Assembly (NCBI GenBank): GCA_021292105.1 | Contig: CM037874.1 | Coordinates: 41,963,809 to 42,027,808 of the forward strand | DNA: 64,000 nt | Direction of reading: 5' to 3' | DNA from: Anadara kagoshimensis | Lineage: Eukaryota; Mollusca; Bivalvia; Arcoida; Arcidae | In this document: piece after piece, positions 17,201-43,000 of the stretch | Layout of the letters: every line of letters begins with the position of its first letter | Position numbering within the stretch: the first letter of the stretch is position 1 | Made by a program: the position numbers and the translations under genes | The notes under the pieces: generated by a model | What the model saw: the letters and a program-made list of their open reading frames with translations, nothing else | Databases searched by the model: none | What the model was told of the DNA's origin: nothing

Positions 17201-20200
17201 CTGTAATGGTGAACTGTTAGTTGAGTTATCTGGTTCTGAGGTAGATTTTCTCTGAAAAAAATATATAAAATATAAATAAATTGAGGAGTGGAGTGGAATA
17301 ATGGGTGTTTTACACCTCAGTCAAGATTTTGTTCAATTAAACATGTATATCAAGTTCTGAAGATGGTAGAGGAAACTGGAGTAACTGGAGAAAATCACCA
17401 ATCCTGGAAAAAAGTGTTTTACACCTCACTCAAGATTTTTAAAAAATATAAATGTATTTCAAGTTCTAAAGATGATGGAGGAAATTGGAGTACCAGTAAC
17501 TGGAAAAAATCACCAACTTTGGACAAAAGAACAGTCAAACTTTCTCACAGTTTGTCCAGGCCAAGGGAGATTAAAACCTAAACAATGAGAAGCACTGTCA
17601 ACACAGACTTCACATCATTTGGCCATGAAGGTACCTAAGGGCTAAGAATTGGAGATCTTTGAAAATGTGATTAAAATATAAAGCTGAAAAACATTTTTGC
17701 AGTTTTGCCCACGATAAATTTTGTAAAGGTTCAGCTACGGTAATTTTTACAAGATGATCTGGTACAAGTCATGATTAGTAGAAGTCACCATGTACATTGT
17801 CTGTGACAACAGAATCTCAAACCACATGGGCTTATATTGAGATTAATTTTGAAAAGTTACTAAAACTGTCTTGTCATAAAAAACAGAAAAACTGTTGAAG
17901 CAATGTAAAACAATAAATAAATAAATAAATAAATAAATAAATAAATAAATAAATAAATAAATAAATAAATAAATAAATCAATCAATCAATCAATCAATCA
18001 ATCAATCAATCAATCAATTAATCAATCAATCAAATCCAAAAAAATATATGATTACTAACCTTAGATCTAGAATCCAAGGGTCTTTCTAGTATAAGTATTC
18101 TATATGGCTTGTAGTCCTAGTAAATAACAAATAATATCAAGTTGTAATATAAGATATAACTAGGAGACATGACTAAATATCACAGCCACTGTTGTATATT
18201 TACAGTTGTCATGATTTCTCCTTCTACACCACATTTTGAGCAATTGTGTGTCAGTGTTATCGATCAAATTGACATCATGATGCAAATATGTCATTTACTT
18301 GTTACGTCAAATCATGGTGTTTGAATACACTACAATCACAAAGTACCTTCTGATGTTCCATTATTTTTTTTATTATTATTTTTTAAATCTTTTTACATTA
18401 TATACAATAAAGAAATGTTATTATGTGCAACAGTTAATTGATGTATTTTTGATTTTAACATGAAATTGTGGTTTTATCAAAGTAATATTAATCAAACTTA
18501 TAGTGGAATTATATATTAACGGCTTTGCAATTTGGACTGGTCATTGTTATTCTTACTTGCATTGACAATACATGGACCACTGCAATGTGATAAAGTACAA
18601 AAATGTAACAATAATGTTATATTTTTACCATGATTTTTACTTTATCTACATGTAAATTTAATTATAAGATTTGAATCCAACTTTCATTTGGATCATTAAA
18701 AAAATGAAATAAAATGAAACTAGAACTGTCTTTTGAGAGCCAAATAACCCCTATCCCTAACATTTAATGTTTCTGCGACCTTGACCTTTGCAATAATATG
18801 ACCTTGGTTCAAGGTCATCCCATTTCTGGACCATGAAAATTATTCATGTGAAGTTTTAAGGCAGTTGTCTAAAGCAATTATGAGATATGACAGACAAGGT
18901 GATTCCAATATAACCCACTCAAACTAGTTTGCAGGGGGAGGGGATATAAATGAATTATTTCCTCAATGTTAAGCCAAACCCCTAAATAATGCAAAAATCT
19001 GACTGAACAAATAACGATAATAAATCAAGGTCTTACTGTAGTACACTGTGATCAATTATAGACTACTAAACTCACCTTATTATAACCTCAGTACACTGTG
19101 ATCAATTATAGACTACCAAACTCACCTTATTATAACCTAATTCTTCATTTAATATCCTGACCTTTTCATCTGAATCACCTATAATATTACAAACAATGTC
19201 AGTATGTCAAACTTGAACTCTTTAGTGAACCCCCCTCCCTAGGTTTTGTCATTGGGTCACGACCCTTAACCCATGAACCTCATCATCATTTGATATCATC
19301 TCATGATGGTTTACATTTGTTTGATCAAAATCCATCAATAGACAGAGAAGATATGGAGCTGACATGATATTGGGATGCCAGCTAGGTGAAGGTGCAGAAA
19401 TTTTGCCTGTACATTGCACTGATGCAGCAGGGTTCTTTATTGTGTCATGCCTACTATGACACAAGACCTCATTTATTTGAAGTTTCCATCCTAAAGAACC
19501 ATGACTTTCATTTCCTTATGCCAAGCGCTTGGCGAAAGAACAGTCACTTCCCACTGGGTTTGAACCCACGACCTCCCACTTATGGACCAAGCACTCTACC
19601 AACTGAGCTACTGCTGTGGTCAAAACACAATTTGTAATCATTTACCTATGATGATGCATTTTTCATCCTCTTCTAACTCTACTGTTTTAGAATTCTGTGA
19701 CAATGTTAAGTACTGCCTACAAAAAATAACAAAATTATAAAATATGTATTCTACTACACATCTGACGATATGATTACTGTAACTCACTCTACAAGATTTG
19801 ACAGTTCTGAAATAGTGCAGATGATTTTATTAACTGCAGCTCAATCTTGTATAAACACAGGAATTGGTTGACCTTTGTAATATTGATGAGTAACCATTGA
19901 CAATCATAATGTGAGGTGAGGATAATATAACATCTTTCATATAAAGGAAAAAAATAGAACTGTAAAAATATAACAACCAAAATTGAGTGACTCCCTAAAA
20001 TACAAGAAATGTAGCAGTATTTCTTGTCATCACTATCTATGTACATGTATGCCTATAGGGTTTTACAATGCACAGATAATTCCAGAAAGATTTCCATTTG
20101 AAAACTTTGGTAATTTTGATACAATTTAATTTTAATTTTGACCAAATAGATTAAATAAATGATTATTTGAAAAAAGTCATCCTGAACATTTCAAGGAAAT

Positions 20201-40000: not shown

Positions 40001-43000
40001 CCTCACAAAAACAGGTAATCATGTTTGTATGAAGAGCATTGTAAAAACTTGTCCTCACAAAAACAGGTAAGCTTGTTTGTATAAAGCTTGTCCTCACAAA
40101 AACAGGTAATCATGTTTGTATGAAGAGCATTGTAAAAACTTGTCCTCACAAAAACAGGTAATCCTGTTTGTATGAAGCTTGTCCTCACAAAAATAGGTAA
40201 TCATGTTTGTATGAAGAGCATTGTAAAAACTTGTCCTCACAAAAACAGGTAAGCTTGTTTGTATGAAGCTTGTCCTCACAAAAACAGGTAATCATGTTTG
40301 TATGAAGAGCATTGTAAAAACTTGTCCTCACAAAAACAGGTAATCGTGTTTGTATGAAGAGCATTGTAAAAACTTGTCCTCACAAAAACAGGTAAGTGTG
40401 TTTGTATGAAGCTTGTCCTCACAAAAACAGGTAATCATGTTTGTATGAAGAGCATTGTAAAAACTTGTCCTCACAAAAACAGGTAAGCTTGTTTGTATGA
40501 AGCTTGTCCTCACAAAAACAGGTAATCATGTTTGTATGAAGAGCATTGTAAAAACTTGTCCTCACAAAAACAGGTAATCGTGTTTGTATGAAGAGCATTG
40601 TAAAAACTTGTCCTCACAAAAACAGGTAATCGTGTTTGTATTAAGAGCATTGTAAAAACTTGTCCTCACAAAAACAGGTAATCGTGTTTGTATGAAGAGC
40701 ATTGTAAAAACTTGTGCTCACAAAAACAGGTAAGTGTGTTTGTATGAAGAGCATTGTAAAAACTTGTCCTCACAAAAACAGGTAATCGTGTTTGTATGAA
40801 GAGCAATGTAAAAACTTGTCCTCACAAAAACAGGTAAGTGTGTTTGTATGAAGCTTGTCCTCACAAAAACAGGTAATCGTGTTTGTATGAAGAGCATTGT
40901 AAAAACTTGTCCTCACAAAAACAGGTAATCGTGTTTGTATGAAGAGCATTGTAAAAACTTGTCCTCACAAAAACAGGTAATCGTGTTTGTATGAAGAGCA
41001 TTGTAAAAACTCGTCCTCACAAAAACAGGTAATCGTGTTTGTATGAAGAGCAATGTAAAAACTTGTCCTCACAAAAGCAGGTAAGCTTGTTTGTATGAAG
41101 AGCATTGTAAAAACTTGTGCTCACAAAAACAGGTAAGTGTGTTTGTATGAAGAGCAATGTAAAAACTTGTCCTCACAAAAGCAGGTAAGCTTGTTTGTAT
41201 GAAGAGCATTGTAAAAACTTGTCCTCACAAAAACAGGTAATCGTGTTTGTATGAAGAGCAATGTAAAAACTTGTCCTCACAAAAACAGGTAATCATGTTT
41301 GTATGAAGAGCATTGTAAAAACTTGTGCTCACAAAAACAGGTAATCATGTTTGTGTGAAGAGCATTGTAAAAACTTGTCCTCACAAAAACAGGTAATCAT
41401 GTTTGTATGAAGAGCATTGTAAAAACTTGTGCTCACAAAAACAGGTAATCATGTTTGTATGAAGAGCATTGTAAAAACTTGTCCTCACAAAAACAGGTAA
41501 GTGTGTTTGTATGAACTTGTCCTCACAAAAACAGGTAATCGTGTTTGTATGAAGAGCAATGTAAAAACTTGTCCTCACAAAAACAGGTAATCATGTTTGT
41601 ATGAAGAGCATTGTAAAAACTTGTGCTCACAAAAACAGGTAATCATGTTTGTATGAAGAGCATTGTAAAAACTTGTCCTCACAAAAACAGGTAAGTGTGT
41701 TTGTTTGAAGAGCATTGTAAAAACTTGTCCTCACAAAAACAGGTAAGTGTGTTTGTGTGAAGCTTGTCCTCACAAAAACAGGAAATCGTGTTTGTATGAA
41801 GAGCATCATAAAAACTTGTCCTCACAAAAACAGGTGAGTGTGTTTGTATGAAGAGCATCGACCTCATTACAATTCAGAGATTCCCAAATGACGTCACATT
41901 GGGTAAACTGACTAGAAGTGCACATGCATTTTACCGCCACTCTTTTGTCACTACAGTTTGGTGACACAAGATTCTGTATCATACGAGTTCTTTTGTCAGA
42001 TCAGATAGAAAAAACTAGTCTTATGTTAGATAAAACTTAAATATTTTATGTCAGTTTGTACTTCATCTTTACTAACAATTTAATGACAAAAGTATAAATA
42101 AGTGTATCTAGTTGCCCCTAGCACCATTCCTTTATTGAAGTGTATTAGAATATCGGGGGAAAATTTCTGTCGGGGAAGTGAGATAAGTGTTTCTGGTGTG
42201 TTGGGTATTTCCAAGATTCTATACAGAATTAATGGTAGGTAATGCGTTCAACCACGTAAATTATAACCATGGAAAATTTTAATAAGGTGGTTTTAAAAAA
42301 GAGCAAAAATTACCGGCTATATGGTATAATATTTCGCTTATATCAAATTTTAGGTCAGTCACTATAAGCCCTTCATTTTAAAAATATATTTTGATAAGAC
42401 TTAATTATTTTTATTTTCCTGTTAAATTCAGAGAGAAGAGTGTTGTTAAGTGAGATGGAATCAACTGGTCAAGCATTTGAAGAAATGCAAGAACAAAATA
42501 CCAGATTATTACAACAACTGAAAGAGAAAGATGATGCTAACTTTAAATTAATGTCTGAGGTTTGTATCACTACCAGAGATATTTTTATTTTATATTTGAT
42601 TTTGTTTTACACAAAACACTCACTCATACACACACACTCTCACCTTTTCACTCATACACAAGCACACTCACCTTTTCACTCACTCCATCACAAACTGTAT
42701 TATGTGTTTTCATGTTCATATTTTTTGTGAGAATGCATCTAAAATACATGTAGGCGTAATTATACATGTGTGAAAAAAAATTGTATTATATAACATGATT
42801 TCTAAACTGTAATGCAAAACATATTATCAGACCTGTGTTGAAAAACATTGTACTTATGATGAATAAAACCCTCTAGTAGTTTTGAGCCTTAAGTTTGTTA
42901 AGCTTCTTCAACTGATTAAGTTTTTTTGTATAATTATTACCCCCCCCTTCAAACTATTTTGAGGGGTGGTATATAGGAATCACTATGTCTGTCAGTCGGT

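Follow-up and report, generated by a model that had tools for sequence, protein, structure and literature searches.

Minisatellites spanning splice junctions in a BRE1 gene and in unrelated genes of the same genome

A BRE1 gene with arrays across its splice junctions

The 64,000-nucleotide stretch analyzed here (the window; Anadara kagoshimensis assembly GCA_021292105.1, contig CM037874.1, positions 41,963,809 to 42,027,808) carries a gene of the BRE1 (RNF20/RNF40) type in which the units of four minisatellites extend across an exon-intron boundary, namely the donors of exons 2, 5, and 13 and the acceptor of exon 8. The assembly consists of 36 contigs and represents a 1.115-Gb genome; G+C content within the window is 32%. 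Arrays were called in the window by Tandem Repeats Finder (TRF), which recovered every array named in an earlier note on this DNA, and the gene model was built by hand. All 17 introns of the model are GT-AG, and most of its length aligns to the BRE1B and BRE1A chains of PDB 8gui (E values of 5.7e-249 and 1.9e-232, respectively), which we take to be the human proteins. The gene and its arrays are listed below.

25013-46916, plus strand: BRE1 (RNF20/RNF40 type), hand-built model with 18 coding exons, 1007 amino acids
26202-26445, plus strand: exon 2 donor array, 35-bp unit (21 exon and 14 intron bp), 7 copies; predicted functional junction 26222/26223, in the first copy
29929-30269, plus strand: exon 5 donor array, 65-79-bp units; predicted functional junction 29985/29986, in the first copy
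33049-34553, plus strand: exon 8 acceptor array, 45-bp unit (29 exon and 16 intron bp); predicted functional junction 34524/34525, in the last copy
39905-41858, plus strand: exon 13 donor array, 52/39-bp units, 40 copies; predicted functional junction 39923/39924, in the first copy
30572-30760, plus strand: intron 5 array, 47 bp, 4 copies, intron-only; stops 8 bp short of the exon 6 acceptor
35444-35522, plus strand: intron 8 array, 32 bp, 2.4 copies, intron-only; stops 12 bp short of the exon 9 acceptor
42620-42682, plus strand: intron 14 array, 28 bp, 2.2 copies, intron-only; 60 bp past exon 14

The seven donors of the exon 2 array follow one another at a spacing of 35 bp, and the exon 5 array contains four complete donors, at spacings of 79, 65, and 79 bp, together with a partial fifth unit that lacks a donor. 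In the exon 8 array we counted 33 acceptors, separated by 45 bp in 30 of the 32 intervals and by 43 bp in the other two. The exon 13 array comprises 40 units, with spacings of 52 bp (30 intervals), 39 bp (8), and 38 bp (1), and its GT is intact in 39 of them. Mean unit identity in the long BRE1 arrays is 95%. These counts bear out the earlier note, where 7, 4-5, about 33, and about 40 copies had been given for the four boundaries; its remark that arrays also abut the acceptors of exons 6 and 9 applies to the intron-only arrays of introns 5 and 8. The exonic halves of the units, LSSQKQ among them, align to BRE1A/B residues when set against the PDB 8gui chains, which identifies the exon as ancestral coding sequence and hence as the source of the array, not its product.

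We then considered what use of the inner copies would mean for the reading frame. Read beyond the first donor, exon 2 runs into a stop after four codons (VIPQ), exon 5 after seven (VGPYREL), and exon 13 after five, so that the BRE1 protein needs the first of 7, 4, and 40 donors, respectively. On the acceptor side, we followed the frame from two of the earlier exon 8 acceptors, the first and the penultimate, and came upon a stop within roughly a unit's length in each case; to the extent covered by these two, the protein thus needs the last of the 33 acceptors. Judged by these frames, the cell would use the exon-proximal splice site exclusively in BRE1. As to placement, four of the seven BRE1 minisatellites with a period of at least 20 bp span one of the gene's 34 junctions versus 0.43 expected if units were placed at random (P = 6e-4), a value that is post hoc because the locus was selected for its junction arrays.

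Some further features of the gene were noted along the way. At exon 14 (42420-42436) the second AG of a CAGAG is apparently used, the first AG producing a frame shift. Introns 7 and 16 contain related inverted-repeat stretches (window positions 32270-32440 and 44375-44520) that by eye resemble copies of a small non-autonomous element. Two other segments, one just past the exon 13 array (41873-41960) and one in intron 16 (44670-44750), are alike without being tandem (ATGACGTCACA ... TTTACCGCCA) and, again by eye, probably belong to a dispersed repeat.

Junction-spanning arrays in a myosin-domain sample

As a control from the same genome we chose a family unrelated to BRE1, the myosin head domain, for which the genome was searched and 29 regions around matches (L039-L067) were taken by the analyst from the match table. 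Exons in these regions were located through protein-level matches between paralogues, independently of annotation, and candidate arrays were inspected by eye; those in L048, L053, L054, L056, and L063 had their exons revised manually before arrays were counted. One exon of L054 was overlooked by the exon finder and found by eye, and further missed exons beside intron-only arrays are possible. The placement count covers 27 regions with 164 kb and 264 exon ends, after exclusion of low-complexity arrays and of L047 and L057, which are paralogues of L051 and L056. The following regions contain junction-spanning arrays.

L039: acceptor array, 80 bp, 2 copies
L048: donor array after the P-loop exon, 84 bp, 13 copies
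L054 (C12:2447500-2456499), oriented positions 4316-4765 and 5410-6355: 64-bp donor arrays of 7 and 15 copies, at two exons of one gene
L056 (C11:32452500-32457499): acceptor array, 97 bp, 8 copies
L061: donor array, 97 bp, 3.8 copies

Junction-spanning arrays are therefore not confined to BRE1 but are found at about 2% of the sampled exon ends (6/264), and the two arrays in the L054 gene indicate that BRE1 is not the sole gene with a cluster of them. Random unit placement would put 2.16 of the 27 filtered arrays across a junction, compared to the 6 observed (P = 0.015). As L056 was partly ascertained through matches made by the array itself, we repeated the count without it, which leaves 5 junction-spanning arrays against an approximate expectation of 1.96 (P = 0.049). 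These numbers modify the argument of the earlier note in two ways. Its premise that minisatellites should seldom center on splice sites was too strong, given that about 2 such arrays are expected by chance in 164 kb and 6 are seen. Its observation of several junction arrays in one locus stands insofar as these arrays are real, numerous, and, post hoc, more frequent in BRE1 than expected by chance; the phenomenon is not peculiar to the locus, however.

One of the control arrays also speaks to age. L057, a paralogue of L056 on the same contig, carries the same acceptor array, with 5.2 copies by TRF compared to 8.1 in L056, and the longest block of flanking sequence shared by the two is 86% identical over 1332 aligned bases. 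Comparing seven units from L056 with four from L057, we found the units to be 95.6% and 95.8% alike within the respective arrays and 92.7% alike between them. The simplest reading of these sequences is a shared ancestral array that later underwent concerted evolution. Its presence in diverged paralogues marks the array as old and genuine and makes an error of assembly unlikely.

Several candidates were rejected upon inspection. L029 and the array at 2960 in L042 are low complexity beside an acceptor, L053 is repeat-like with spurious exon calls, and the donor call at 1415 in L049 is likewise spurious. In L062 (oriented positions 3224-3500) a pentanucleotide run begins no more than about 5 bp downstream of a myosin donor; the array at 7771-7880 in L051 starts about 5 bp into the intron, its unit being seemingly dispersed, and that of L043 stops 51 bp short of the acceptor. 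L063 and L044 proved not to be junction-spanning, and L038 and other intron-only arrays are intronic. An earlier set of 38 loci of about 3 kb (L001-L038) overlaps with the sample in that L033 contains the L039 array. Besides its acceptor array, L056 holds arrays of 54 bp in 3 copies, 67 bp in 2.1 copies, and 26 bp in 44 copies, the last of these cut by the end of the locus. About 20 kb away, L038 (match at C11:32477994) holds an array of 47 bp in 29 copies, and arrays may thus cluster regionally.

Within the window itself, a shorter array touches a gene that neighbors BRE1.

19040-19138, minus strand: array of a 50-bp unit in 2 copies, covering the donor (19126/19125) of a putative exon; AATAAG/GTGAGT occurs twice

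The putative exon (19178-19126) is bounded by AG and GT and has an open frame. The earlier note had assigned this two-copy array to the exon 5 donor of a VPS9 gene: two copies across a putative exon's donor were recovered, but the VPS9 identity was not confirmed, as searches of Pfam and PDB with single open reading frames, the joined peptide, and a three-frame read-through of two 9-kb stretches returned no convincing family. The window is also a repeat-rich stretch outside BRE1, with other minisatellites at 11366-12122, 47250-47465, 49244-50036, 51540-52284, 54274-54756, and 55880-56275.

Origin and growth of the arrays

We propose, with a probability of roughly 70%, that the BRE1 arrays are minisatellites of the type named mirages in lancelets (see below), that is, chance tandem duplications that are tolerated and that grow or survive preferentially at junctions. 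A short tandem duplication with a unit of about 35-100 bp would fall by chance across an exon-intron boundary, and the array would then expand through unequal exchange or slippage, accompanied by homogenization. The copy nearest the exon, which is the first in donor arrays and the last in acceptor arrays, would retain the original exon end and splice site, and the remaining copies would lie in the intron and be removed with it by splicing. A junction array would be tolerated because the exon-proximal copy stays intact. Minisatellites are so abundant in this genome, with 27 arrays other than low-complexity ones per 164 kb of sampled gene sequence, that some of them hit junctions by chance.

The evidence for preferential growth or survival comes from copy number. 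When the control arrays were divided at five copies, a cut set after looking at the data, those with fewer copies spanned junctions at chance level (2/19 versus 1.59 expected, P = 0.49), in contrast to those with at least five copies (4/8 versus 0.60 expected, P = 0.0012). The contrast between the two classes gives a Fisher P of 0.044, or of 0.005 when pooled with BRE1, where three of three high-copy arrays and one of four low-copy arrays span junctions. High copy numbers thus seem commoner among arrays that cross a junction than among those lying wholly in introns. That low-copy arrays hit junctions at nearly the chance rate speaks against duplications being initiated there preferentially, and the surplus of high-copy arrays, although drawn from a small sample, suggests that junction arrays grow or persist better. 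One might go further and suppose, although we consider it somewhat improbable, that splice junctions serve as minisatellite incubators: the exon-proximal copy, under purifying selection, would stay a near-perfect template through which the array is kept homogeneous and capable of expansion, while arrays confined to introns degenerate. Arrays with few copies would in that case be distributed at random and those with many would accumulate at exon edges, a pattern of which the small sample gives a hint.

Several observations weigh against chance duplication followed by preferential growth. The contrast between copy-number classes depends on a post hoc cut and, based on few arrays, weakens to 3/6 versus 2/17 (P = 0.089) without L056. 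BRE1 is an outlier, with junction arrays at 4 of 34 junctions versus 6 of 264 in the myosin sample (Fisher P = 0.018), and none of its seven minisatellites is more than 61 bp away from an exon end (P = 6.5e-6, likewise post hoc). Moreover, a pattern of three tandem donor words (CAGGTAAG) separated by 20-50 bp has 2010 matches genome-wide versus 348 for the reversed word (GAATGGAC), which relative to 32,941 and 22,185 single sites amounts to 6.1% versus 1.6%, or a 3.9-fold excess per single site, although these figures count matches rather than arrays, are dominated by a few long arrays with dozens of matches each, and do not include the presence of an exon. This excess may reflect a real attraction to splice sites, and together with the surplus of junction arrays in the control sample (6 versus 2.16 expected) and the exon-end proximity in BRE1 it would favor an initiation directed at junctions, with splice junctions made duplication hot spots by breakage or template switching at the edges of exons or by some event linked to RNA. 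We nevertheless regard such directed initiation as quite unlikely. Low-copy arrays would be expected to show it, yet they occur at chance, and array edges, read by eye in 10 arrays, follow no consistent pattern of microhomology (an AAAAA is shared at exon 13; for exon 8 and L048 the positions taken as array starts were internal to the repeat). With CAGTAAGG, a word matched in dinucleotides, 743 triplets were obtained as well, and 420 with its reverse (raw counts, not per single site), and the distinct arrays on contigs C1 and C2, among the matches listed and with matches at most 2 kb apart merged as one, number 8 for CAGGTAAG, 6 for CAGTAAGG, and 2 for GAATGGAC. The word test therefore agrees with a modest donor-word excess and falls short of proof; it replaces a single-word count in 266 kb of exon-rich sequence (17 donor, 3 reversed) that had suggested no triplet excess. 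Regarding the RNA-templated mechanism raised in the earlier note, nothing supports it: the units carry intron sequence and so were not copied from spliced RNA. An RNA-templated or break-prone mechanism is neither needed nor shown.

The opposite possibility is that these are wholly random, ordinary minisatellites that show no bias in how they start, grow, or persist, and that BRE1 is simply the tail of the distribution. The very high density of arrays and the chance-level placement of low-copy arrays are in line with this, as is a comparison of 36-mers: strong local copies (score ≥25) were found for 10/215 junction 36-mers versus 2/2516 pairings with unrelated introns, but equally for 10/214 points located 150 bp into the intron, a control in which some intron points lie inside the same arrays and exon calls predate correction and include spurious ones. 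Pure randomness accounts poorly for the high-copy arrays in the control sample and for the three of three in BRE1, a discrepancy that diminishes when L056 is removed, and we rate it as somewhat unlikely. We consider it very unlikely that the arrays are themselves selected, with the extra splice sites acting as decoys, regulators, or insurance against splice-site mutation. Splice dinucleotides are indeed mostly intact (GT in 39 of 40 units at exon 13, 13 of 13 full donors in L048), but the units are 90-98% alike overall, so that intact splice sites require no selection; in addition, use of inner copies would introduce stops, and the paralogues differ in copy number. That the arrays are an artefact of the single assembly on which we rely is hardly credible, as unit variants are patterned, with 39- and 52-bp spacings mixed, and paralogues share an array at differing copy number with about 7% divergence between their units. 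For similar repeats in a lancelet gene, the authors cite re-sequencing against assembly error (PMC3902484).

Relation to mirages and other boundary repeats

Tandem duplications across exon-intron boundaries were first described in the lancelet Adh3 gene, where they were named mirages, and were later found in the lancelet globins BflGb6 and BflGb9 and in TnC and PGBD5 (PMC3087553, PMC3902484). Splicing of the globin genes is seemingly undisturbed, the authors call the mechanism unclear, and BflGb6 has 6 and 3 units depending on haplotype (PMC3087553). The arrays described here are like the lancelet mirages in that the unit spans the boundary on the donor or acceptor side, splice sites recur in many copies, units evolve in concert, and several genes per genome are affected. 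They differ in reaching up to 40 copies, compared to the 6 and 3 of BflGb6, and in the presence of four arrays in one gene. In all four BRE1 arrays and the six found elsewhere, the unit consists of an exon end and the adjoining intron with its splice site. Both kinds of boundary are involved, with acceptors at exon 8, L039, and L056 and donors otherwise, and concerted evolution was seen in L056/L057, the paralogues that our comparison covers.

Mirages had been reported as a curiosity of a few lancelet genes, and our analysis adds an animal that is probably not the same. It contributes several arrays of 7-40 copies, the presence of four arrays in one conserved gene, and a first frequency, of about 2% of sampled exon ends. 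The BRE1 arrays offer a natural test of how splicing selects the right site among 40 near-identical donors or 33 acceptors only a few dozen bases apart, and, if the high-copy excess at junctions is true, purifying selection on exons would be linked to the growth of adjoining satellite DNA. Another parallel is a human minisatellite, the subject of a 1995 study in Nucleic Acids Research, which according to the study's title provides multiple splice donors and reportedly carries them repeated at an exon end; there several donors are said to be used, whereas BRE1 meets a stop beyond the first.

Among the matches listed, we recognized no report of such arrays from molluscs or bivalves by title and opening of the abstract, which does not prove their absence. 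Related phenomena have been described in other contexts. The AGGT model of intron gain shares with the present arrays the creation of extra splice sites by tandem duplication, but it duplicates exon sequence to give a new intron, whereas here junctions are multiplied into introns and the units hold intron sequence (PMC3443670). Similarly, internal tandem repeats in human paralogues have units of about 30 bp, some of which lie at exon-intron boundaries and alter gene structure; unlike the BRE1 arrays, these occur in primate-specific duplicates, and about half of them are located in coding sequence (PMC2812944).

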